DNA from: a virus
Length of the DNA stretch: 43,851 nt
Reading direction: 5' to 3' (one strand)
Virus record (IMG/VR): IMGVR_UViG_3300036104_000001
Location: 1-43,851 of that record
Part shown: positions 19,090 to 43,851 of the stretch, piece by piece
How the letters are laid out: every line of letters begins with the position of its first letter
Position numbering within the stretch: position 1 is the first letter of the stretch
Notes under the pieces: model-generated
What the model was told of the DNA's origin: nothing
Databases searched by the model: none
Seen by the model: only the letters and a program-made list of their open reading frames with translations
Program-made: the position numbers and the translations under genes

Positions 19090-20343
19090 CTATGATTGAA
19101 CTTTCTCGATCATCAATCGCGCCGCCTCGACATCGGCAAAGATGCGATCATCGCCCTCCAGCACGGCGGTCTCGCCGGTTATTTCCTGCCAGCGCCGCAC
19201 GATCACATCGGCATAGGCCGGATCGATCTCCAGCAGCACGGCACGCCGCCCCGTGCGCTCCGCCGCGATCATCGTCGTGCCCGACCCGCCGAAGCAGTCG
19301 AGCACCGTGTCGCGCGGCTTGCTGCTGTTGCGGATGGCGCGCTCGACCAGCGCGACCGGCTTCATCGTGGGATGCAGGTCGTTGCGTGCCGGCTTGTCGA
19401 AGTGCCAGACGTTCCCCTGGTCGCGCGCGCCGCACCAGTAGTGCTGCGCGCCAGCCTTCCAGCCGTAGAGCATCGCCTCGAATTGCTGGTGGTAGTCGGC
19501 GCGGCCGAGCGCGAAAGTGTTCTTCGCCCAGATGATCGTGCTGGACCATTTGCCGCCGGCCTCCTGCCAGACCCGATGCATCGTCGGCCATTCGGACGAG
19601 GACATGCAGACGTAGCAGGCGCCCTTGGTGACCGAGAGCAGGTTGGCGAAGGCGGGCTTCAAGAAGTCACCGAAGCCACCGCCCAGCGCGTCATTGGCGA
19701 TGGTCATGCGCGCGGCGGTGCCGCCCTCATACGCAACATTGTACGGAGGATCTTGCCAGGCCATGTCCGCAAGGTGGCCAGCGCCGAGCGCGCGCTGCAC
19801 GTCGACCAGCTTCGTCGCGTCGCCACACAGCAATCGATGCTCGCCGCAGCGCCAGAGATCGCCGGTGCGCGTGACGGGCACCACTGGCGGCGGCGGCGCC
19901 TCGTCGGCATCGTCGCCGAGGCCGGCGTCGGCGGCGGCCAGCAGGCGATCCAGCTCCATGCCGGAGAAGCCGAGCAGGTCCAGGTCGACGACGGCTTCGT
20001 CGCGGATGCGGGCGATCTCGGCAGCCAGCAGCGCTTCGTCCCAGCCGGAGTTCAGGGCGATCTGGTTGTCGGCCAGCCGCAGCGCACGCGCCTGCGCCGG
20101 GGAAAGGTGGCCAAGCCGCAGCACCGGCACGGAGGCGAGCCCGAGCTGCTTCGCCGCCATGACGCGGCCGTGGCCGGCAATCAGCACGCCCTCGGCGTCG
20201 ACCAGCACCGGGTTCACGAAGCCGAACTCGGCAATGGAGGCGGCGATCTGCGTCACCTGCGTCGGGGAATGGGTGCGCGCGTTCTCGGCATAGGGCACGA
20301 GGGATGCGATCGGCAGGCTGCTCACGACGAGATCAAGCTGCAT
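19090..20343 (-). CDS. ParB-like/DNA methyltransferase fusion (DPPY, probable m6A)
   Basis: A 417-residue protein from ATG 20343. GGAGGT lies 7 bases before the ATG, so the in-frame extension to 20397 is unlikely. Residues about 8-110 form a ParB N-terminal-like domain: NARTHSPTQVTQIAASIAEF, then LVDAEGVLIAGHGRVMAAKQ. The methyltransferase domain has MAWQDPPYNVAYEGG (motif IV, DPPY) and LDCFGGSGTTMIAAERTG (motif I, SAM binding), in the order of beta-class enzymes. DPPY favours adenine-N6 methylation. Phage orphan methylases of this type protect DNA from host restriction. It overlaps the SPPY paralogue upstream by 11 bp. No restriction nuclease is nearby. Confidence 0.87.
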   Translation of the reverse strand: MQLDLVVSSLPIASLVPYAENARTHSPTQVTQIAASIAEFGFVNPVLVDAEGVLIAGHGRVMAAKQLGLASVPVLRLGHLSPAQARALRLADNQIALNSGWDEALLAAEIARIRDEAVVDLDLLGFSGMELDRLLAAADAGLGDDADEAPPPPVVPVTRTGDLWRCGEHRLLCGDATKLVDVQRALGAGHLADMAWQDPPYNVAYEGGTAARMTIANDALGGGFGDFLKPAFANLLSVTKGACYVCMSSSEWPTMHRVWQEAGGKWSSTIIWAKNTFALGRADYHQQFEAMLYGWKAGAQHYWCGARDQGNVWHFDKPARNDLHPTMKPVALVERAIRNSSKPRDTVLDCFGGSGTTMIAAERTGRRAVLLEIDPAYADVIVRRWQEITGETAVLEGDDRIFADVEAARLMIEKVQS

Positions 20344-21799
20344 CGGCGGTGACCTCCATTCGCGCCGCAGCAACGGCGTCATAGTCGCGGCCATCATCGG
20401 CGAGCGTCACCAGCAATTCCGGATGCAGCATGCGCCAGCGCGCGATCGCCAGGTCGACATAGGCCGGCGCGAGCTCGATCGCCCGCACGCGGCGGCCGGT
20501 GCGCTGGCCGGCGATGATGGTGGTGCCGGAGCCGCCAAACGGTTCAAACACCACCTCGTTATCGTCCGTGTAGGTCCGCATCAGGAATTCCGGCAGCACG
20601 ACCGGAAACACCGCGGGGTGTTCGGTCTCGATGCCGCGGCCCTTGTGGCGGGTCAGGCGCAGCACGTTGTCGGGGATCCGGAAGTCCTGCACCGGCAGCC
20701 CGGCATGCTGGTATTCCGAGATGGTCCCGTCGGCGGCGCGCAGCCCGCTCCCCTTGTTCGGCGTGCCGGCCCATTTGCAGGGCACGATCTTGTTCGCCTG
20801 CCGGGCCTGGCGGTTGAAGTGGAAGACGAACTCGAAGGCCGGAGCGAGGCGACCATTCCAGTCGCCCGGCAGGCCCGGCCCCTGGTCCCAGGTGTAGAGC
20901 CCGAAGCGCCGCCAGCCGCGGGCGCGCATCCAGTCGAGCCAGCCGGCCCAATAGGGCTGCCATTCGTTGTCGCGATGGATCAGGCCGAGGTTCACCAGCA
21001 CCTGGCCGTCCGGCCGAACCGCCGCGTCGAGATGCTGGAACACACCCTGCATGAGGGCGTCCCAGTCCGTGACGCCGCCGGTGGTGTAGTCGCGCTGGTT
21101 GCCGTACGGCGGAGAGGTGAACAACAGCGCCGCGCGGTCCTGGCCCATTACGCGCGCCGCGGTGGCCGCGTCGGTGCTGTCACCACAGAGCAGGCGATGC
21201 TCGCCCAGCAACCAGAGGTCACCGGGGCGGGTGACGGCCTGGCGCGGCGGAACCGGATCGGCATCGGCGGGGTCCTCCGCCGGCTCCTCATCATCCGCCG
21301 CGCCAGCCGTGCCGCCCCCCTCGGCGGAATTCGCGGACAGAGCCTCGAGCGCGTCGCCGTCGGACACGGCATCTCCAGCCGCCGCGAGGATGTCTGCGAG
21401 CTCATCCGCCGAGAAGCCGAGCGCGCCGAGGTCGATGTCCGGCACCGCCTGCACCGCGGCCAGCGCATCGCGCAGCAGCGCTTGGTCCCAGGTCGCGTTC
21501 TCCGCGATGCGATTGTCGGCGAGCCGCAGCGCCTCCTTCTGCGCCGCGGACAAATGCCGCAGCACGATCGTCGGCACCTTGGCCATGCCGAGCGCCGACG
21601 CAGCTTCCAGCCGCCCGTGGCCGGCGATGAGCACGCCTTCCTCATCCACCAGCAGCGGGTTGGTGAAGCCGAAGGCCAGCATGCTGGCCTTGATCTGCTC
21701 CAGCTGCTCGGCGCTGTGGACGCGCGCGTTGCCGGCGTGCGGACGCAGCTCCGCCACCGGATGCAGCAGGATCTTCGCCGCCATCCAGGGGAGCGTCAT
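20333..21799 (-). CDS. ParB-like/DNA methyltransferase fusion (SPPY, probable m4C)
   Basis: A 488-residue protein (MTLPWMAAKILLHPVAEL). The ParB-like N-terminal domain includes NARVHSAEQLEQIKASML and LVDEEGVLIAGHGRLEAASA. A long acidic linker rich in Asp, Glu and Ala follows at about 150-205. The methyltransferase has ALLFTSPPYGNQRDYTTGG (motif IV, SPPY) and FEPFGGSGTTIIAGQRTG (motif I). SPPY is more usual for cytosine-N4 methylation, so the pair may modify two bases or sites. ATG 21799 fits the domain start; the open frame continues to 22117 without protein-like sequence. GCAAACC motifs lie upstream. Confidence 0.86.
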   Translation of the reverse strand: MTLPWMAAKILLHPVAELRPHAGNARVHSAEQLEQIKASMLAFGFTNPLLVDEEGVLIAGHGRLEAASALGMAKVPTIVLRHLSAAQKEALRLADNRIAENATWDQALLRDALAAVQAVPDIDLGALGFSADELADILAAAGDAVSDGDALEALSANSAEGGGTAGAADDEEPAEDPADADPVPPRQAVTRPGDLWLLGEHRLLCGDSTDAATAARVMGQDRAALLFTSPPYGNQRDYTTGGVTDWDALMQGVFQHLDAAVRPDGQVLVNLGLIHRDNEWQPYWAGWLDWMRARGWRRFGLYTWDQGPGLPGDWNGRLAPAFEFVFHFNRQARQANKIVPCKWAGTPNKGSGLRAADGTISEYQHAGLPVQDFRIPDNVLRLTRHKGRGIETEHPAVFPVVLPEFLMRTYTDDNEVVFEPFGGSGTTIIAGQRTGRRVRAIELAPAYVDLAIARWRMLHPELLVTLADDGRDYDAVAAARMEVTADAA

Positions 21800-22177
21800 T
21801 GGGCCATCCGGATCTGGGAGTCGGTGCAAACCATGCGGCTCGCGGGTGCAAACCTGGCACGGTATGGTTTGCGGGTTATCTGGCTGATCGCACGGGGAAA
21901 AGGCTGCAAACCGCAACCCTGTTTTATGGCCTGGCGCTAGCGACCTTGCGCGCTTCCGCCCCCCCGCATACAGTATTCGCGGGAAGGACCCTGGATTATT
22001 ACTTCGTCTATAATTCGATCGACAGGCCGAGTGGCTCGGGAGCCACCCCGCTCGGCCCGGCGCATGTCTCGCCAGTGATGGCTTTCTGACACGCCAAGAT
22101 TTCACGGCGCAATGCACTCATTCGGCGTGCCGAAGATTTTTCTTCAGCACGTCGATTCATGGATCCGGCGTTGCAGA
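21800..22177. promoter_or_regulatory. noncoding gap with GCAAACC repeats and a hairpin
   Basis: This 378-base region upstream of the methyltransferase pair contains GCAAACC at 21826, 21848 and 21906 and its inverse GGTTTGC at 21866, all within 87 bp just before the start. Farther up, arms GCCGAG/CTCGGC and TGGCTC/GAGCCA (22026-22056) form a hairpin about 120 bases after the stop of the upstream gene. It probably holds an operator/promoter and a weak terminator. No gene seen. Confidence 0.45.
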
Positions 22178-33965: not shown

Positions 33966-34462
33966 CACGCAAAGTCAAACCCGCCGCGCCACCAGCGCCG
34001 ACCATCCCCGCCATCCCGTCTGCCGACGTGGTGGGGCGCCTGGCTGCCCTGAAGACCACCGCCACGCCCGACCTGAAGCAGATGTGGCGGGAGCTCTTCG
34101 CCGCCGAGCCGCCGCCCTACAATCGACGCTTCCTGGAGAGCCGGCTCGCGTACCGGATCCAGGAACTGGCCTATGGCGGCCTGAAGCCCGAGACCATCCA
34201 GCGCCTCGAGGCCCTGGGTGAACAACTCGACGGCGGCAACCCGACCATCAGACGCATCCGCGGCGACGATATGCCAATCATCGGCACGCGGCTGATCCGC
34301 GAGTACCAGGGCGTGCAGCACAGCGTCACCGTACTGCACGACGGCTTCGAGTATCAGGGCCACCCCTACAAATCGCTGTCCTCCATCGCGCGCGCCATCA
34401 CCGGCACCCGCTGGAATGGGTGGCTGTTCTTTGGCCTGAAGAACCGGAGGGCAGCAGCATGA
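33962..34462 (+). CDS. DUF2924 family protein
   Basis: A 166-residue protein. LKQMWRELFAAEPPPYNRRF and LESRLAYRIQELAYGGLKPE are the family hallmark, followed by GTRLIREYQGVQHSVTVLHD, GFEYQGHPYKSLSSIARAIT and GTRWNGWLFFGLK. DUF2924 proteins are almost always encoded next to large serine recombinases and may assist them. The stop overlaps the recombinase ATG at 34459. Confidence 0.88.
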   Translation: MTRKVKPAAPPAPTIPAIPSADVVGRLAALKTTATPDLKQMWRELFAAEPPPYNRRFLESRLAYRIQELAYGGLKPETIQRLEALGEQLDGGNPTIRRIRGDDMPIIGTRLIREYQGVQHSVTVLHDGFEYQGHPYKSLSSIARAITGTRWNGWLFFGLKNRRAAA

Positions 34463-35811
34463 AGCGCAAGCCAGCCGCCGAGGCCGCGATGCCGGCCACG
34501 GTCCGGAAAATCCGTGCCGCCGTGTACACGCGCAAGTCGAGCGAGGAGGGCCTCGACATGGAGTTTAACTCCCTCGACGCCCAGCGCGAGGCATGTGAGG
34601 CATACATCACTAGCCAGCGGTCCGAGGGCTGGGTGCTTGTGCCCGACCGCTACGATGATGGCGGCGTGTCAGGCGGCACGCTGGACCGGCCGGCGTTGCG
34701 GCGCCTCCTGGCGGACATCGAGCGCGGCCGCCTTGACGTCATTGTGTGTTATAAATTGGACAGGCTGTCTCGCGCGTTAATGGACTTTGCCAAGTTGGTT
34801 GAAGTGTTCGACGCGAACAACGTGACCTTTGTCTCCATTACTCAATCATTCAATACGACCACCAGCATGGGTCGCCTCACGCTGAATATACTGCTGAGCT
34901 TTGCACAGTTCGAGCGGGAATTAATTGGCGAGCGCATTCGCGACAAGGTTGCGGCGTCGCGGGCGCGTGGAATCTGGATGGGGGGCTTCGTACCGCTCGG
35001 CTACGACGCCAAGGATCGGAAGCTGCTGGTGAACGACGCTGAGGCTGCGCTGGTGCGACGCATCTTCGGGGGCTTTGTCGAGACGGAATCCGGTACCAAG
35101 CTGGTCCAGGCGCTGCGCGTCGAAGGCGCCACCACGAAGCGCGGCCGCGCCTTCACCAAGAGCGATGTGTATTGGGTGCTGAGCAACCGTACCTATCTCG
35201 GTGAGGCGATGCACAAGGGCAAGTCGCACCCGGGCGAGCATGCCGCCATCGTGCCGCAGGCGATGTGGGACGCGGCCCACGCCCTCCTGACGATCAGCCC
35301 GCGGACCCGCGCTAACCGCACCCGCTGCCAGACGCCTTCCCTGCTGCGCGGGCTGATCTTCGGTAGCGACGGGCGTGCCATGTCTCCCACCCACGCGCGC
35401 GGGCGCCGTGGCCAGCAGTACCGCTACTATGTCAGCCAGTCGGTGCTGAAGGGCAGTGCCGCGGACGGTCCTGCCATCGCCCGCATTTCGGCGGCGGAGA
35501 TTGAGGGCGCGGTCATCGCGCAGGTTCGGGGGCTGCTGCGTCAGCCGGAGGTGGTGCTGGGCGCCTGGCGCGCCGCACGGGCCTCGGCGCCCGACATGAC
35601 CGAAGACGAGGCGCGGCTGGCGCTGGAGCGGCTCGACCCGCTTTGGGAGGAGCTCTTCCCCGCCGAGCAGGCGCGGATCATCCGCCTGCTGGTTGACCGG
35701 GTGGATGTCGGGGAGGGCGGCGCCGGCGTGCGGCTGAAGCTGGAGGGGCTGGCGAGCCTGGCGCGAGATCTCGCGATGCCGACGGCCGAAGCGCCGAGGG
35801 CGGCAGCATGA
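34459..35811 (+). CDS. large serine recombinase (prophage integrase)
   Basis: A 450-residue recombinase. The resolvase domain begins [20 protein letters not shown] with the nucleophilic serine in the RKS motif. [38 protein letters not shown] and [20 protein letters not shown] follow. The recombinase domain ([20 protein letters not shown]) and a C-terminal coiled-coil-like segment ([20 protein letters not shown]) complete it. The zinc ribbon seen in many relatives is reduced. Such enzymes integrate and excise phages at short att sites. The 3' third is duplicated at 38553-38858. Confidence 0.9.
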
Positions 35812-36281
35812 CCGGCGCTGCGCAGATGCTGACCGTGCGGGTGCCGCTGGCGGTTCGGAAGCAGCGGGGCGGGCGGAAGCTGATGATCGCGCCTGCCAGC
35901 AACACGAAGCGGGGCAGCTTGGCGGCGGACACCACATTGGTGAAGGCTGTGGCCCGGGCGTTTCGATGGCGACGGATGATGGAGGCGGGTCGCTTCGGCA
36001 CGATCGACGAACTGGCGGCGGCGGAGAAGATCAACTCGTCCTATGTCTCCCGCCTTCTGCGGCTGACGCTGCTTGCGCCGGACATTGTCGAAGCGATCCT
36101 GGACGGCCGGCAGCCGGAGGGGATGACGCTGCCGGGGCTGATGGAGCCATTTCCGGTGGAGTGGGAGCGCCAGCACTCGAAAGAATGCAATCTCGCATCG
36201 GATGGGCAGGCAGATTACCCCTCACTGATGCATCAGACAGAAAGGGTTGAGGTACCAAATACCGCGAGCATCACCGCATGA
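35808..36281 (+). CDS. recombinase-associated HTH protein, altered C-terminus
   Basis: A 157-residue frame overlapping the recombinase stop (ATGA). Its first 119 residues match the complete second copy at 38855: MLTVRVPLAVRKQRGGRKL, RWRRMMEAGRFGTIDELAAA and EKINSSYVSRLLRLTLLAPD. The HTH-like block IDELAAAEKINSSYVSRLLR suggests a DNA-binding excision or regulatory factor. After residue 119 (36165) the sequence changes, and 38 unrelated residues replace the normal ending (RR-stop). So the breakpoint of a rearrangement cuts the gene end. Confidence 0.7.
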   Translation: MTGAAQMLTVRVPLAVRKQRGGRKLMIAPASNTKRGSLAADTTLVKAVARAFRWRRMMEAGRFGTIDELAAAEKINSSYVSRLLRLTLLAPDIVEAILDGRQPEGMTLPGLMEPFPVEWERQHSKECNLASDGQADYPSLMHQTERVEVPNTASITA

Positions 36282-36288
36282 CCCGCGC

Positions 36289-38424
36289 TCAGGCAAAAAT
36301 ACAATCGGCGGCCGAGAAGCTCGTCACGCCATAAAGCGTGATAGAATTGGGACCGAAGGTGACGATGGTGTCGTTGCCGGTGTTCACGCCGAGGCTGGCG
36401 AAGCTGGCGCCAGAGCCGCGGAAGTCGAGCTTGTCACCCTGCGCCGCGGAGAAATCGCTGATCTGGTCCCAGCCCCAGTCAGCGCTGTCGAAGACGAAGG
36501 TATCGGCGCCGCCATAGCCGTAGTGGATGTCGTCCTGGGTGCCGCCGCGCATGGTGTCGGCCTGGTTGCTGCCCCACAGGATGTCGTTGCCGCCCTGACC
36601 GTTGAGGTTGCCGCCCAGATTGCCATTCGCCACCAGGTTCTCGGCCATGGCGGAGCCGGTGACCTGCGTCGCGTTGCCCGAGAGGTAGACGACCTCGACA
36701 TTCAGCGCGTTGGTCCAGCCATTCACCGTGACCCAGGCGGTGTCGTAGCCCTCATTGGCCAGTTCGGTCACCACGACGCCGGCATTATCGATGATGAAGT
36801 GGTCGGTGCCGGTACCGCCCCACATCTGGTCGGCGCCGCCATAGCCGCGCAGGATGTCGTCTCCAGCATCGCCGCGCAGCGTATCGGCCATGGCGCTGCC
36901 CCAGAGCACGTCATGGCCGCCGCCGCCATTGATGGTGGAGCCGGTGGCGGCGGCGGCGTTGGCGACGAGGTCCTCATCGCCCGAGCCGCCTTGCAGGTTG
37001 GTGGCGGTGCCGATCAGCCTGCCGATTTCGACATTGGCGGCCATGGTCCAGCCGTTGGTCGCGACCCAGGCGGTGTCGGTGCCCTGGCCGGCCAGCTCTA
37101 TCACCCCGTCGCCCACATCGTTGATGACGTATTGGTCGTTACCGTAACTACCGCGCATGATGTCGTTGCCGCCACCGCCCTGGAAGGTGTCCCCCGCCGC
37201 CCCTCCAGTCAGGATGTCCCCGCCGGCGGTGCCGATGGCGTAGATCCGGCCACTTGGCACAAAGAAGTCGGTGCCCAGGACCGAGGCGTCGATGCGCAGG
37301 CTCGTGCAGGCCTCGCCGGCGGAGATGATCAGCTGTCCGGTTTCGAGGGCGTTCACGGCATAGGCAGTGGTGAAGGAGACGGACTGGACGCCGGCGCCGG
37401 TCAGCCGCAATTCCTCAAGGCCGACCGCGTTGAACAGGCTTGTGGACCAATTCGTGTTGCCGAGCGCCACGTCGAAACGGTCGTAACCCAGGCCGGCGCT
37501 CATGGAGGCGTCGCCATCCAGCTCGGCGCCACTGGCGAAGACGAAGACATCGTCGCCCTCGCCGCCGTCGATGCTGTCGGCCCCGGCGCCGCCCTGAAAC
37601 CGCTCATTGCCGGCACCGCCGGTCAGCGTATCGGCGCCCGAGCCGCCGATGATCGTCTCGAAGCCGGTGAAGGTCATGGCCAGGTTGTTGGCGCCGGTGC
37701 CGAGATTGAAGGAAACCGCCGAACCCCAGTTGCTCGCATCCAGCGTGTCGAAGCCCTCGCCGCCCAAGGCGGCGACGCCAGTGCCGCCGACAATCACCAC
37801 GTCATCGCCCGCGCCGCCATCCAGGAAGTCGCCAGTGCTACTGTTGAACAGCTTGTCATTGCCCTCACCGCCATACAACTGGTCCGTGCCGATTGTGGCG
37901 TAGAGGGTGTCGTCGCCGCCCAGGCCAAAGAGCACAGCGCCGTTGGCCGAAGCCTGGCCGTTCGCCTGCATGATGTTGCCCAGCGCATTGCCGGTGGCGG
38001 TGAAGACGCCCGTCAGGGTTTCGAACACCATATTCTCCACATTAGCGGCCAGGGTATAGGCGGACTGGTTGGAATAGACATTAGCCGTATCGATGCCCTC
38101 GCCCGCCGCCTCGGTGATCGTGTCCAGATTGTCGCTGATCTGGTAGGTATCGTTCCCGGTGCCGCCCATCAGGGTATCGGTGCCCGTGCCGCCGGACATC
38201 GTGTCATTGCCGGCGCCGCCATCGAGCGCGTCGTTGCCGGCCTCGCCGTAGAGCAGGTCATTGCCGTCGCCGCCGGAGATAATGTCGTTGCCGGCACCGC
38301 CAGAGACGGTGTCGTTGCCGGCCAAGGCCGAGATGACGTCGTTGGTGGCGCCGAAGGTGCCGCTGTCGTCGCCCGAGGTGCCGTTCCAGAAATTGGGCAG
38401 GCCGGGGGTCTGGGTGAAGGGCAT
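36289..38424 (-). CDS. RTX-type calcium-binding repeat protein
   Basis: A 711-residue protein (MPFTQTPGLPNFWNGTSGDD) with many RTX nonapeptides. The N-terminal cluster at about 35-85 includes GGAGNDIISGGDGNDLLYG and EAGNDALDGGAGNDTMSGG. Further clusters lie near 155-185, 255-285, 425-450 and in the last 200 residues (GGTQDDIHYGYGGADTFVFD). The end IKLDFRG-like region to FSAADCIFA fits a type I secretion signal area. RTX proteins are secreted through a TolC-type exporter and fold on calcium outside the cell. No enzyme domain or ABC exporter gene is seen. GGAGAGA precedes the ATG at 38424. The gene runs convergent to the recombinase/HTH pair. Confidence 0.86.
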   Translation of the reverse strand: MPFTQTPGLPNFWNGTSGDDSGTFGATNDVISALAGNDTVSGGAGNDIISGGDGNDLLYGEAGNDALDGGAGNDTMSGGTGTDTLMGGTGNDTYQISDNLDTITEAAGEGIDTANVYSNQSAYTLAANVENMVFETLTGVFTATGNALGNIMQANGQASANGAVLFGLGGDDTLYATIGTDQLYGGEGNDKLFNSSTGDFLDGGAGDDVVIVGGTGVAALGGEGFDTLDASNWGSAVSFNLGTGANNLAMTFTGFETIIGGSGADTLTGGAGNERFQGGAGADSIDGGEGDDVFVFASGAELDGDASMSAGLGYDRFDVALGNTNWSTSLFNAVGLEELRLTGAGVQSVSFTTAYAVNALETGQLIISAGEACTSLRIDASVLGTDFFVPSGRIYAIGTAGGDILTGGAAGDTFQGGGGNDIMRGSYGNDQYVINDVGDGVIELAGQGTDTAWVATNGWTMAANVEIGRLIGTATNLQGGSGDEDLVANAAAATGSTINGGGGHDVLWGSAMADTLRGDAGDDILRGYGGADQMWGGTGTDHFIIDNAGVVVTELANEGYDTAWVTVNGWTNALNVEVVYLSGNATQVTGSAMAENLVANGNLGGNLNGQGGNDILWGSNQADTMRGGTQDDIHYGYGGADTFVFDSADWGWDQISDFSAAQGDKLDFRGSGASFASLGVNTGNDTIVTFGPNSITLYGVTSFSAADCIFA

Positions 38425-38552
38425 TGCGTCTCTCCGTCGTTGCGCGCCGGGTGCCGGCTTCGATGGAGGAGTTGTCGCCCAGCTGTGTTTCAGTTCCGCA
38501 CTGCCGCGACCGTGATCCATGTTTCAATTGTTTCAACCGACGATGGCGGGCG

Positions 38553-38858
38553 GGTGCGGTGATCGCCCAGGTCAGGGGGCTACTGCGCCAGCCGGAGGTG
38601 GTGCTTGGGGCCTGGCGTGCGGCACGGGCCTCGGCGCCCGACATGACGGAGGACGAGGCACGGCTGGCGCTGGAGCGGCTGGACCCGCTGTGGGAGGAGC
38701 TGTTCCCGGCCGAGCAGGCGCGGATCATCCGCCTGCTGGTTGACCGGGTGGATGTCGGGGAGGGCGGCGCCGATGTGCGGCTGAAGCTGGAGGGGCTGGC
38801 CAGCCTGGCGCGGGACCTGGCGGCGCCGCAGGCCGAACCGGCAAAGGCCGCGGCATGA
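38553..38858 (+). pseudogene. second serine recombinase, C-terminal remnant
   Basis: About 100 codons aligned without gaps to 35506-35811. They begin at [20 protein letters not shown] and run through [20 protein letters not shown] to the stop. All catalytic sequence is missing. Several substitutions (for example DVRLKLEG for [18 protein letters not shown] for [10 protein letters not shown]) show an older copy, not a recent duplicate. The upstream frame is unrelated and lies in the RTX promoter region. Confidence 0.82.
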
Positions 38859-39220
38859 CCGGCGCCGCGCAGATGCTGACCGTGCGGGTGCCGCTGGCGG
38901 TTAGGAAGCAGCGGGGCGGGCGGAAGCTTGTTCTGACGCCGGGCGGCATGGCGCCCCGCGGCGCCTCGGCTGCGGACACCACACTGGTGAAGGCGCTGGC
39001 CAGGGCGTTTCGGTGGCGACGAATGATGGAGACGGGCCGCTACAGTACGATCGACGAACTGGCGGCGGCCGAAAAGATCAACTCGTCCTATGTCTCGCGC
39101 CTGCTCCGCCTCACGCTGCTGGCGCCTGACATCGTTGAGGCGATCTTAGATGGGCGGCAGCCGGAGGGGATGACGCTGCCGGGGCTGATGGACCCGTTTC
39201 CGGTGGAGTGGCGGCGGTAG
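38855..39220 (+). CDS. recombinase-associated HTH protein, complete second copy
   Basis: A 121-residue protein overlapping the recombinase remnant stop (ATGA). It shares its first 119 residues with the copy at 35808, differing mainly at residues 26-35 (VLTPGGMAPRG). The HTH-like block is STIDELAAAEKINSSYVSRL. It ends FPVEWRR, the apparent native C-terminus. It is the only intact gene of the second cassette and might still be expressed. Confidence 0.7.
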   Translation: MTGAAQMLTVRVPLAVRKQRGGRKLVLTPGGMAPRGASAADTTLVKALARAFRWRRMMETGRYSTIDELAAAEKINSSYVSRLLRLTLLAPDIVEAILDGRQPEGMTLPGLMDPFPVEWRR

Positions 39221-39406: not shown

Positions 39407-42400
39407 TCAGCGATCCGACGCATCATGCGGCAGATGTCCTGGGAAGGACGGATCCTCCGCCAATGACTCGGATGGCGCCGCCGCGGGGCTGTCCGCGTGA
39501 CCCGCACCCGCCACGTCGTCTCCCGGTTGGGTGCCGCCCGATCCATGTGTCGTATCAGAGAGCGGGTCCGTCGCCGGAATGATCGGCACCAGATGATCGG
39601 CTTCGGTAGGGGCGGCGTGCTGGGTTGCCGACTCAGCCTCCGCCCCCAGCGCCGCGAGATAAGGGTTGGCTTGCGGCTCGGGCAGGTCGGCGGACCCATC
39701 GGTCTGTGGGATCAGGCTTGCATAGCCGGTGGAGGGGGGGGCGCTCCCATCCTGCGCGACAGGGCTCTCGCTGGGCGGTGCGCCCCAGCCCCAGCCCGAG
39801 CCCTGACCCTGCCAGCCGGCGTGATGCCCGGGGTGACTGCTGGAAACCGAACTGATGACGCCGCCGCCCTCCCACGCCTCGTTCGTGCCGTGGATGAGGA
39901 CTTCAATTTGGTGCGTCGTGCCATCGGTGCTTTGCACGCGCAGTGTGTCGGTGAGGGTTTCGCCGGCGCGTAGATCTTGGATGTCGGCCTGCGCGTTCCC
40001 GGCGCTGTAGCGCCAGCTGCCATCGGCGTGCACCACGAACGTGCCGAACTGGCCTGCCGCGGTCATCGGCACCAAGTGGTCCTCGGCTGAATCCGTGTCG
40101 CTGACGATGACGGTGCCCGAGGTGTTAAGCATGCCCGAAGCGCTGACCCCGCGGTCCTCGGTCATTTCGCCGGGCGCCGAGTGCATTGAGGCCGGGTCAT
40201 TGGCGCCGTGGATCGTGACCTGCAGCCGGTGCGTCGTGCCGTCCGCACTATGCACCATGGTGGTGTCAGTCAGACTGTCGCCGCGGCCCAGCGCCTGGAT
40301 GGCGTGCTGGGAATCGTCGGCGGCATACCGCCAGGTGCCATCGGCATTGACCACGAAGGTGCCGAAGCTGCCCGCGGTGGTCCCGGGCATGACATGGTTT
40401 TGGTCGTCGTCGCGGTCGGTGACGATGATGGTTCCGGTGGCCACCAGCAGGCCCGAGGCGGTAACGTTTCTGTCCTCGGTGATGTCGCCCGGTGTGGAGC
40501 GGATGATGGCCTGGTCATTGGTGCCGTGGATGGTGACATGCAGATCATGCGCGGTGCCGTCGGCGCTGTGCACGCGGGCGGTGTCGGTGACGCTGTCGCC
40601 GCTGCCGAGCGACTGGATGGTAGGCTGGCGATTGTCAGCGGCATAACGCCAGCTGCCGTCGGCATTGACCACGAAGGTGCCGTAATGCCCGGTCATGGCA
40701 CCGGGGATCATGCTGTTCCGACCTTGATCGGGGTCGCTGACCGTGATCATGCCCGCGGCGGTCAGCAGGCTGGTGGGGCCGACATTCCGATCCTCGGTGA
40801 CCGAGAGGTCGTCCGCGGTGATCCGGGCTGCGTCATCGGTGCCGTGGATGTGGACCGCGATAACCTGTGACGAACCGTCGACGCTATGGACGGTGATGGA
40901 ATCGGTGATGACCTCGCCGTTGCGCAGTTCCTGTATGGCGGGTTGGCCGTTGCTGGCGACGTAGTTCCAATGGCCATCGGAACTGACCGAAAAGAGCCCG
41001 TACTCACCGCGCGCGACGATTGGCAGCAGGCGGTTCTGGTCCGGATCGGGATCGATGACGGTGATCAAGCCCTGGGCGACGAGATAGCCGTCGGGCCTGA
41101 GGTTGCGGTCCTCGGTGAGGTCGCCGGGGGGCAGGACGAAGTCCGCGGGATGGTCGGCCGGCGGGACCTTGGCCTCGATGCTCGCTGTGCGGAACTCGAA
41201 ATCCTGGGCGGGCAGATGAGCGGGCGGGGATTGAAGCGGCTGCGCATCTGCGCGGCTGGGCTGGGGCTCTGCGATGACAGGCGGGAGGTTGGGCTGCGGG
41301 AGCGGCGGTTCTTCTGCCAGGTCGTGCGGCTTGGGGCCGTCGGGTGGCGGCTCCTTCGCCTGGGGCGGGAGGTTGGGCTGCGGCAGCGGCGGCTGGACCA
41401 GTGGTGGGTCCTGCGGACCGGGACCCTGCGGTGGCGGCTCTTTCGCCTCCGGCGGGAGGTTGGGCTGCGGCAGCGGCGGCTGGACGAGCGGCGGATCCTG
41501 CGGGCCGGGACCCTGCGGCGGTGGCTCTTTCGCCTCCGGCGGGAGGTTCGGCTGCGGCAGTGGCGGTTCTTGCGCCAGGTCGTGCGGCTTGGGGCCGTCG
41601 GGTGGCGGCTCTTTCGCCTCCGGCGGGAGGTTGGGCTGCGGCAACGGCGGCTGGACCAGCGGCGGATCCTGCGGGCCGGGCCCCTGCGGCGGTGGCTCCT
41701 TGGCCTCCGGCGGCAGATGCGGCTGTGGCAGCGGCGGCTGGATCAACGGCGGATCCTGCGGGCCAGGACCCTGCGCGGGCGGTTCCTTCGCGACCGGCGG
41801 GAGTTGCGGCTGTGGCAGCGGCGGTTGAACGAGCGGTGGGTCCTGCGGGCCGGGCCCCTGCGGCGGCGGTTCCTTCACATCAGCCGGCAGATGTGGCTGC
41901 GGCAGCGGCGGCTGGACCAGCGGCGGCTCCTGCGGACCAGGACCTTGCGGTGGCGGCTCCTTCGCCACCGGCGGAAGATGTGGCTGCGGCAACGGCGGCT
42001 GGACCAGCGGCGGGTCCTGCGGGCCAGGCCCCTGCGGCGGCGGTTCCTTCACATCAGCCGGCAGATGTGGCTGCGGCAGCGGCGGCTGGACCAGCGGCGG
42101 CTCCTGCGGACCAGGACCTTGCGGTGGCGGCTCCTTCGCCACCGGCGGAAGATGTGGCTGTGGCAGCGGCGGCTGGACCAGCGGCGGATCCTGCGGGCCA
42201 GGACCCTGCGCGGGCGGTTCCTTCGCGACCGGCGGGAGATGCGGCTGTGGCAGCGGCGGTTGAACGAGCGGTGGGTCCTGCGGGCCGGGCCCCTGCGGCG
42301 GCGGTTCCTTCACATCAGCCGGCAGATGTGGCTGCGGCAGCGGCGGCTGGACCAGCGGCGGATCCTGCGGGCCGGGCCCCTGCGGCGGTGGCTCCTTGGC

Positions 42401-43851
42401 CTCCGGCGGGAGATGCGGCTGTGGCAGCGGCGGCTGGACCAACGGCGGATCCTGCGGGCCAGGACCCTGCGCGGGCGGTTCCTTCGCGACCGGCGGGAGA
42501 TGCGGCTGTGGCAGCGGCGGCTGGACCAGCGGTGGGTCCTGCGGACCGGGACCCTGCGGCGGTGGCTCTTTCGCCTCCGGCGGGAGGTTGGGCTGCGGCA
42601 GCGGCGGCTGGACCAGCGGCGGCTCCTGCGGACCAGGACCTTGCGGTGGCGGCTCCTTCGCCACCGGCGGAAGATGTGGCTGCGGCAACGGCGGCTGGAC
42701 CAGCGGCGGATCCTGCGGGCCGGGCCCCTGCGGCGGTGGCTCCTTGGCCTCCGGCGGCGGATGCGGCTGTGGCAGCGGCGGTTGAACGAGCGGTGGGTCC
42801 TGCGGGCCGGGCCCCTGCGGCGGCGGTTCCTTCACATCAGCCGGCAGATGTGGCTGCGGCAGCGGCGGCTGGACCAGCGGCGGCTCCTGCGGACCAGGAC
42901 CTTGCGGTGGCGGCTCCTTCGCCACCGGCGGAAGATGTGGCTGTGGCAGCGGCGGCTGGACCAGCGGCGGATCCTGCGGACCAGGACCTTGCGGCGGCGG
43001 TTCCTTCGCGACCGGCGGAAGATGCGGCTGTGGCAACGGCGGCTGGACCAGCGGCGGGTCCTGCGGACCAGGACCCTGCGCGGGCGGTTCCTTCGCGACC
43101 GGCGGGAGTTGCGGCTGTGGCAGCGGCGGTTGAACGAGCGGTGGGTCCTGCGGGCCGGGCCCCTGCGGCGGTGGCTCCTTGGCCTCCGGCGGCAGATGCG
43201 GCTGTGGCAATGGCGGCTGGACGAACGGCGGATCCTGCGGGCCAGGACCCTGCGCGGGCGGTTCCTTCGCGACCGGCGGGAGATGCGGCTGTGGCAGCGG
43301 CGGCTGGACCAGCGGCGGGTCCTGCGGCCCAGGGCCTTGCGGCGGCGGTTCCTTCACATCAGCCGGCAGATGTGGCTGCGGCAGCGGCGGCTGGACCAGC
43401 GGCGGATCCTGTGGGCCGGGCCCCTGCGGCGGTGGCTCTTTCACCACGGGCGGGAGGTTCGGCTGCGGCAGCGGCGGCTGGACCAGCGGCGGGTCCTGCG
43501 GACCAGGACCTTGCGGTGGCGGCTCCTTCGCCACCGGCGGAAGATGTGGCTGCGGCAACGGCGGCTGGACCAGCGGCGGGTCCTGCGGGCCAGGACCCTG
43601 CGGCGGCGGTTCCTTCGCGACTGGCGGAAGATGCGGCTGTGGCAACGGCGGCTGGACCAGCGGCGGATCCTGCGGGCCGGGCCCCTGCGGCGGCGGTTCC
43701 TTCGGCGGATCGTGTGACTTGGGCCCGTCCGGCGGCGGCTCCTTCGGCGGATCGTGCGGCTTCGGCCCGTCCGGCGGCGGCTCCTTCGGCGGATCGTTCG
43801 GCTTCGGCCCGTCCGGCGGCGGCTCCTTCGGCGGATCGTGCGGCTTCGGCC
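39407..43851 (-). CDS. giant proline-rich repeat/VCBS surface-type protein (N-terminus outside window)
   Basis: The frame is open from the right edge of the window to TGA at 39407, so at least 1480 residues are present and the start lies beyond 43851. The first part has 14-residue units (EPPPDGPKPHDPPK), then about two dozen 29-residue units (EPPPQGPGPQDPPLVQPPLP plus QPHLPPVAK with variants). After 41270 a linker leads to four VCBS-type domains: TEDRNLRPDGYLVAQGLITV, TEDRNVGPTSLLTAAGMI, TEDRNVTASGLLVATGTII and TEDRGVSASGMLNTSGTVIV, each ending in an IHGTxD/N motif. The C-terminal 160 residues are disordered, Ser/Pro/His/Gly-rich. The organisation fits a secreted adhesin or biofilm protein with an extended stalk. 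No secretion signal is visible here. Confidence 0.8.
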   Translation of the reverse strand, partial: PKPHDPPKEPPPDGPKPNDPPKEPPPDGPKPHDPPKEPPPDGPKSHDPPKEPPPQGPGPQDPPLVQPPLPQPHLPPVAKEPPPQGPGPQDPPLVQPPLPQPHLPPVAKEPPPQGPGPQDPPLVQPPLPQPNLPPVVKEPPPQGPGPQDPPLVQPPLPQPHLPADVKEPPPQGPGPQDPPLVQPPLPQPHLPPVAKEPPAQGPGPQDPPFVQPPLPQPHLPPEAKEPPPQGPGPQDPPLVQPPLPQPQLPPVAKEPPAQGPGPQDPPLVQPPLPQPHLPPVAKEPPPQGPGPQDPPLVQPPLPQPHLPPVAKEPPPQGPGPQEPPLVQPPLPQPHLPADVKEPPPQGPGPQDPPLVQPPLPQPHPPPEAKEPPPQGPGPQDPPLVQPPLPQPHLPPVAKEPPPQGPGPQEPPLVQPPLPQPNLPPEAKEPPPQGPGPQDPPLVQPPLPQPHLPPVAKEPPAQGPGPQDPPLVQPPLPQPHLPPEAKEPPPQGPGPQDPPLVQPPLPQPHLPADVKEPPPQGPGPQDPPLVQPPLPQPHLPPVAKEPPAQGPGPQDPPLVQPPLPQPHLPPVAKEPPPQGPGPQEPPLVQPPLPQPHLPADVKEPPPQGPGPQDPPLVQPPLPQPHLPPVAKEPPPQGPGPQEPPLVQPPLPQPHLPADVKEPPPQGPGPQDPPLVQPPLPQPQLPPVAKEPPAQGPGPQDPPLIQPPLPQPHLPPEAKEPPPQGPGPQDPPLVQPPLPQPNLPPEAKEPPPDGPKPHDLAQEPPLPQPNLPPEAKEPPPQGPGPQDPPLVQPPLPQPNLPPEAKEPPPQGPGPQDPPLVQPPLPQPNLPPQAKEPPPDGPKPHDLAEEPPLPQPNLPPVIAEPQPSRADAQPLQSPPAHLPAQDFEFRTASIEAKVPPADHPADFVLPPGDLTEDRNLRPDGYLVAQGLITVIDPDPDQNRLLPIVARGEYGLFSVSSDGHWNYVASNGQPAIQELRNGEVITDSITVHSVDGSSQVIAVHIHGTDDAARITADDLSVTEDRNVGPTSLLTAAGMITVSDPDQGRNSMIPGAMTGHYGTFVVNADGSWRYAADNRQPTIQSLGSGDSVTDTARVHSADGTAHDLHVTIHGTNDQAIIRSTPGDITEDRNVTASGLLVATGTIIVTDRDDDQNHVMPGTTAGSFGTFVVNADGTWRYAADDSQHAIQALGRGDSLTDTTMVHSADGTTHRLQVTIHGANDPASMHSAPGEMTEDRGVSASGMLNTSGTVIVSDTDSAEDHLVPMTAAGQFGTFVVHADGSWRYSAGNAQADIQDLRAGETLTDTLRVQSTDGTTHQIEVLIHGTNEAWEGGGVISSVSSSHPGHHAGWQGQGSGWGWGAPPSESPVAQDGSAPPSTGYASLIPQTDGSADLPEPQANPYLAALGAEAESATQHAAPTEADHLVPIIPATDPLSDTTHGSGGTQPGDDVAGAGHADSPAAAPSESLAEDPSFPGHLPHDASDR
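41330..43700. repeat. 87-bp coding tandem repeats (29-residue Pro/Gln units)
   Basis: About 24-26 tandem units of 87 bp, high GC, differing at a few codons. Positions after QPLPQP vary between H, N and Q; the unit end varies between PPVAK, PPEAK and PADVK; the middle varies between PQDPP and PQEPP. Two divergent D-type units (EPPPDGPKPHDLA) lie near 41300-41350 and 41570-41620. Groups of variants recur in the same order, indicating block duplication. Confidence 0.92.
43701..43851. repeat. 42-bp coding tandem repeats (14-residue units)
   Basis: Units begin at 43701, 43743, 43785 and 43827 (plus strand TTCGGCGGATCGT...), each encoding EPPPDGPKPHDPPK-type peptides on the minus strand. The array continues past the window edge. 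Confidence 0.9.

Follow-up and report, generated by a model that had tools for sequence, protein, structure and literature searches.

A proline-rich repeat stalk with four VCBS domains in a putative bacterial surface protein encoded beside a prophage

In streptococcal antigen I/II and similar adhesins, a proline-rich repeat region forms part of the surface stalk. A stalk made of folded domains occurs in the RTX adhesin AhLap of Aeromonas hydrophila, whose extender, as outlined in PMC7493085, comprises about 20 beta-sandwich domains of the VCBS type; PDB entry 6xi1 is a tetra-tandemer of this extender. Periscope Proteins, as summarized in PMC8201768, have stalks that consist mostly of tandem folded domains encoded by very similar DNA. 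Here we describe an open reading frame that joins a long array of short proline-rich repeats to four VCBS domains. It lies at the right edge of the window, the stretch of 43,851 bases that constitutes an entire virus record.

The stalk-VCBS protein is encoded on the minus strand by an open frame without internal stop codons (39407..43849), which comprises 1480 codons in the window and loses its N-terminus to the right edge. From that edge inward, the stalk consists of 14-residue units (KEPPPDGPKPHDPP), three complete and one partial (43703..43849), followed by 24 contiguous 29-residue units (units 4-27, 41617..43702), of which KEPPPQGPGPQDPPLVQPPLPQPHLPPVA is typical. The final four units (41273..41616) include two of 29 residues; the other two are 28-residue hybrids carrying a 14-residue-type head (KEPPPDGPKPHD). 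KEPP-based splitting places the 24 consecutive units from 43702 downwards and two further ones from 41530 and 41443, giving 26 units of 29 residues, with the hybrids starting from 41614 and 41356 and the three complete 14-residue units from 43828. Tandem Repeats Finder reports an array with a period of 87 bp at 41346-43704 (score 2933). The hybrids join a 14-residue-type head to a 29-residue-type end, pointing to a relationship between the two kinds of unit. A linker of about 51 residues (41117..41272) connects the stalk to the four VCBS domains (39875..41116), and a Gly/Ser/Pro/His-rich tail of about 160-164 residues completes the protein (39407..39874). The stalk is composed of 44% Pro and 13% Gln and carries 37 Lys and 84 Asp/Glu per 860 residues. 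The count of 26 units and four domains bears out the original prediction, made from the DNA letters, of a Pro/Gln repeat stalk with roughly two dozen 29-residue units and VCBS domains. The window contains no RNA elements or tRNAs, and there is no consensus promoter or terminator near the stalk-VCBS stop codon.

The array is less uniform at the DNA level than predicted. The 26 units average 85.8% identity (range 75.9-100%) and their synonymous sites are strongly diverged, so the earlier description of near-uniform DNA does not hold. In the minus frame, 23 of the 33 variable columns fall at third codon positions, and comparison between units yields a pS of 0.398, a pN of 0.045 and a dN/dS of 0.083. 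Variation is thus mostly synonymous, and the stalk peptide has been conserved while its DNA diverged. We conclude that purifying selection acts on the stalk protein. The plus strand also carries a 943-amino acid open frame (40886..43717), which was considered as the real gene and ruled out by a dN/dS of 2.1 in that frame; it is a non-coding shadow of the repeats. Another plus-strand frame across the units has a dN/dS of 0.103, but this is no independent evidence because its third positions pair with the third positions of the minus frame and mirror them.

The VCBS part is readily recognized. TIGR01965 (VCBS) matches four stretches with 340.7 bits against a curated cut-off of 15.5 (E 6e-104), and Pfam adds matches to the cadherin-like and Ig-like families Cadherin_4 and Big_9. 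A phmmer search of PDB sequences returned 6xi1 as the sole match (2e-51). The four domains were modeled with AlphaFold (416 residues, ten aligned rows), giving a mean pLDDT of 79 and a pTM of 0.43, so that the individual domains are fair and their relative placement is unreliable. The predicted fold aligns best with 6xi1 (E 5e-35), then with an ice-binding adhesin extender and cadherin ectodomains. These predictions show a VCBS fold for the four C-terminal domains.

The stalk, on the other hand, yielded no match in Pfam even at E<=10 and none among PDB sequences at E<=1. In viral contigs, its protein pattern gave five matches with no relative among them, and its DNA pattern gave eight single matches, none of them in arrays. 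This agrees with the original prediction that the units fit no familiar motif family. Plasmids contained no match to the stalk as protein or DNA, in a search that is weak since BLAST masks low complexity, and the pattern was found in 0 of 43 genomes of one order, scanned without a positive control. The VCBS part does have relatives. A search of genome contigs found one (L003), which shares the VCBS domains only. Among plasmids, 113 records match the VCBS part; all fall short of 80% query coverage and of 60% identity. A single bacterial class, with 385 genomes searched, yielded VCBS relatives in 10 (E<=1e-15), the top-scoring match being 44% identical. The proline-rich arm is absent in eight VCBS stretches from six of those 10 genomes. 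As the VCBS relatives lack a comparable proline stalk, the whole architecture is without precedent among the sequences searched here, and a search of the open-access literature for the combination of proline-rich, VCBS and adhesin returned no paper. The protein is real, coding, conserved and of a functionally familiar kind; it is the stalk sequence and its repeat pattern that have no match here.

Units 13, 22 and 24 are identical in DNA, and perfect matches 182, 170 and 134 bp long link units at lags of 11, 9 and 2, beyond what column-wise shuffles produce (maximum 71 across 60 shuffles). Exchange between units has therefore occurred. The original prediction went further and had several units duplicated together. 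The identical units and the exact runs of up to 182 bp favor this, but permuting the unit order produces similar values: the longest exact run has a mean of 126 and a maximum of 183 (n=60), and the longest near-identical block, two units, was equalled in 1211 of 2000 permutations. Multi-unit block duplication is plausible, if only weakly supported.

The order of the units holds a second signal. Adjacent units differ on average at 13.9 of 87 bases versus 12.0 in permuted order (P=0.0022, 5000 permutations, in a test restricted to the contiguous run of 24 units, with the other two 29-residue units excluded), a value that becomes about 0.03 after correction because lag 1 is one among 12 lags examined. 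Mean identity between units is lowest at lag 1 (0.841, compared with 0.877 at lag 11). This divergence persists in 15 of 15 unit phases (DNA P 0.0015-0.0095; third positions P 0.00275-0.017) and in synonymous codons alone, where neighbors score 0.361 versus 0.312 expected (P=0.0087). A Mantel test of distance against divergence over all lags gave -0.094 for DNA (P=0.062) and -0.118 for third positions (P=0.023); the stronger values seen with lags <=12 depend on a limit that was picked after inspection of the data. The trend is opposite to that of protein repeats in general, for which PMC5120217, in the part relevant here, describes closer units as usually more similar. A comparator array of eight units in L003 has the usual positive trend (P 0.0125), and in two other comparator arrays, of 6 and 14 units, the trend is not significant. 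Neighbors in the stalk thus diverge beyond random order, the reverse of simple tandem duplication, although the effect is modest. Such a pattern would arise if slippage or exchange removed identical neighbors, if selection favored stability, or if identical neighbors were collapsed in assembly.

Collapse of identical adjacent units in short reads would delete identical neighbors and would alone be enough to make the remaining ones appear divergent, and the record terminates within 42-bp repeats, as expected from a broken assembly. However, the assembly runs through perfect repeats as long as 182 bp, the open frame and its codon-level conservation are intact throughout, and the repeats themselves cannot arise by collapse. 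We therefore consider it unlikely that an assembly artefact shaped the unit number, the unit order or the divergence of neighbors.

The array could also behave like that of a Periscope-type protein, in which recombination alters the number of units so that the length of the arm, and with it how far the VCBS domains extend, differs between cells or strains. We treat this as a possible but less favored reading. The tandem units number more than 26, and the identical units and long exact runs record past exchange between units. Against it, DNA identity averages just 86%, with its minimum between neighbors, and synonymous divergence is large (pS 0.40). Given this divergence and the fact that neighbors are the most divergent, unequal exchange between them should be slower, not faster. 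Identical units 13, 22 and 24 still allow unequal exchange. For the tunable stalk length envisaged in the original prediction, the internal evidence from the DNA itself leans slightly against.

The converse, in which the array is held stable, is highly speculative and, in our view, improbable. Adjacent units with different synonymous codons would then maintain a fixed-length arm, conserved in amino acids, that resists slippage and unequal exchange, either through selection or through the disappearance of arrays with identical neighbors. Were it correct, divergence between neighbors would provide a simple, testable criterion for telling repeat arrays that are kept stable from those that are kept variable.

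We infer that the gene probably encodes a large protein of the bacterial surface or matrix, whose proline-rich arm would hold the VCBS end outward, and that the gene probably belongs to the host or to an island flanking the prophage. The N-terminal part beyond the window may provide an anchor or mediate export. The arm, at least about 860 residues long, would form an extended, probably polyproline-II-like spacer, and its far C-terminal end would carry the four VCBS beta-sandwich domains, of the calcium type, followed by a short tail. It could keep the VCBS domains off the cell, projecting them outward or tethering them in the extracellular matrix, for adhesion or for contacts in that matrix. 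Secretion or export, calcium binding and adhesion are proposed by analogy with VCBS relatives, and the extended state of the arm is presumed.

Alternatively, the arm could cross the envelope or wall, bridging the periplasm or a capsule, so that the VCBS domains need only clear the envelope. TonB has a proline-rich part that bridges the periplasm, and the Pro/Glu/Lys-rich, regularly spaced sequence of the stalk is reminiscent in composition of periplasm-spanning linkers. Polyproline rises 0.31 nm per residue. About 860 fully extended residues would therefore measure about 270 nm, far beyond a periplasm, and we regard an envelope spacer as improbable compared with an outward-projecting arm.

The tail has no family match in Pfam and no plasmid match at E<=5. 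The C-terminus is hydrophilic, ends with HDASDR and contains no GGxGxD motif, and thus lacks the signature typical of type I secretion. The original prediction suggested looking for a secretion signal beyond the right side of the window, but that edge is the N-terminal side of the protein; a type I signal would be expected at the C-terminus, which lies within the window at 39407. GC3 in the last 50 codons is 0.63 versus 0.83 in the VCBS part, a weak coding signal that makes an older frameshift near the C-terminal end possible. Truncation of the C-terminus by integration was also considered and is not directly supported, as the stop codon at 39407 precedes the junction at about 39211. Pfam identified no type I secretion genes among the 20 window ORFs scanned, in a record that stops at the right edge. 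With respect to RTX and LapA-type adhesins, tandem beta-sandwich extender domains are present, and neither RTX nonapeptides at the C-terminus nor a type I secretion signal was found in the protein. This missing RTX and type I end speaks against classing the protein simply as an RTX adhesin. Neither Pfam nor NCBIfam detects an adhesive domain in the visible part, which also contains no ligand-binding, retention or secretion element, the N-terminus lying beyond the window. The idea of a cell-surface or biofilm adhesin, also part of the original prediction, is supported indirectly by the VCBS domains and their resemblance to the AhLap extender.

Most of the window is a tailed prophage with terminase, portal, capsid and tail tube genes and a large serine recombinase (34420..35811, plus strand). 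The end of the integrase module, composed of the recombinase C-terminus and a small HTH-like ORF, is duplicated beside the prophage (35505-36164 and 38552-39211). The second copy (38552..39211, plus strand) is 5'-truncated, 87% identical to the first, and lies in the stretch separating the prophage from the stalk-VCBS gene, whose stop codon follows 196 bp past it. In 18 of the 19 loci of the closest prophages (recombinase >=92% identical), similarity stops at window position 36147-36185; in the nineteenth it stops earlier, at the end of that contig. The stalk-VCBS gene, with its end at 39407, is not inside the segment conserved among the related prophages. Because it lies beyond the conserved prophage end and the truncated second copy of the integrase module, the gene is probably not phage DNA and most likely belongs to the host or to a genomic island next to the prophage.

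Between the two module copies, an RTX calcium-binding repeat protein of 743 amino acids with 14 GGxGxD motifs is encoded on the minus strand (36289..38520); its end appears intact, and it has no relative in IMG/VR contigs. Partial second copies of the module occur in three related loci as well (L006, L020 and L030), and together with the duplication seen here they make repeated integration at the same point likely. This arrangement raises the alternative that the stalk-VCBS and RTX genes are moron-like cargo of the prophage or island, carried in by the integrase modules, instead of old host genes. The RTX gene between two module ends, the short distance from the second of them to the stalk-VCBS stop codon and the second copies elsewhere fit this alternative, as do the variable genes that related loci hold at the same position. 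But neither the RTX nor the VCBS gene was found in any IMG/VR contig, and the differing flanks may just reflect differing integration sites. We find cargo rather doubtful and retain a host or island gene as the preferred reading.

Nine ORFs picked from 16 listed at this position in related loci all match defense-system models: DrmD, BrxL, type I methyltransferase and specificity subunits, HmaC/DUF499, a PLD helicase and Orf5/SspE-like proteins. Defense ORFs lie downstream of the integrase module in eight loci, which makes the region next to this family of integrases a candidate hot spot for defense genes. Within the prophage, two adjacent genes (19090-22117) each combine ParB_N and N6_N4 methylase domains; their DNA is 72% identical over about 200 bp, and the pair is probably an old duplication. 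A gene at the left edge (235-1353), possibly on the host side of the prophage, encodes a RecG C-terminal-like ATPase domain (HATPase_c_4). Searches of 398 and 244 genomes with the recombinase gave a best identity of 65%. A further 385 genomes yielded no recombinase match at the very strict limit of 1e-195, a negative that carries little weight. A 273-bp match (84% identical) on a Roseomonas marmotae plasmid hints, and no more than hints, at Acetobacteraceae as the host.

Among the systems described, the AhLap extender (PDB 6xi1) is the closest to the folded part, with four tandem VCBS-type beta-sandwich domains that are 33% identical over the four-domain model. Unlike AhLap, the stalk-VCBS protein places its four domains behind a proline-rich arm, with no RTX repeats or end resembling that of type I secretion substrates seen. 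VCBS-bearing proteins of other Alphaproteobacteria and LapA-like proteins (L003, L139-L146) are similar in their VCBS domains (33-47% identical), but they have no proline-rich repeat arm: in L139-L146 no 100-residue block has more than 10 Pro, compared with 44% Pro in the stalk. Several of them have RTX blocks. The proline-rich stalk of antigen I/II differs in that the repeats here have far more copies, no sequence match and a Gram-negative VCBS context. Periscope Proteins, as far as PMC8201768 sets out their features, share the long tandem-repeat stalk of a presumed surface protein. The repeats described here fall in no known folded-domain family by the Pfam search, and the stalk is instead built of 29-residue proline-rich peptides encoded by diverged DNA (mean 86%, neighbors 84%). 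If this stalk is truly an extended spacer, it would give a VCBS surface protein an unusual reach, with a proline-rich arm replacing additional folded calcium domains.
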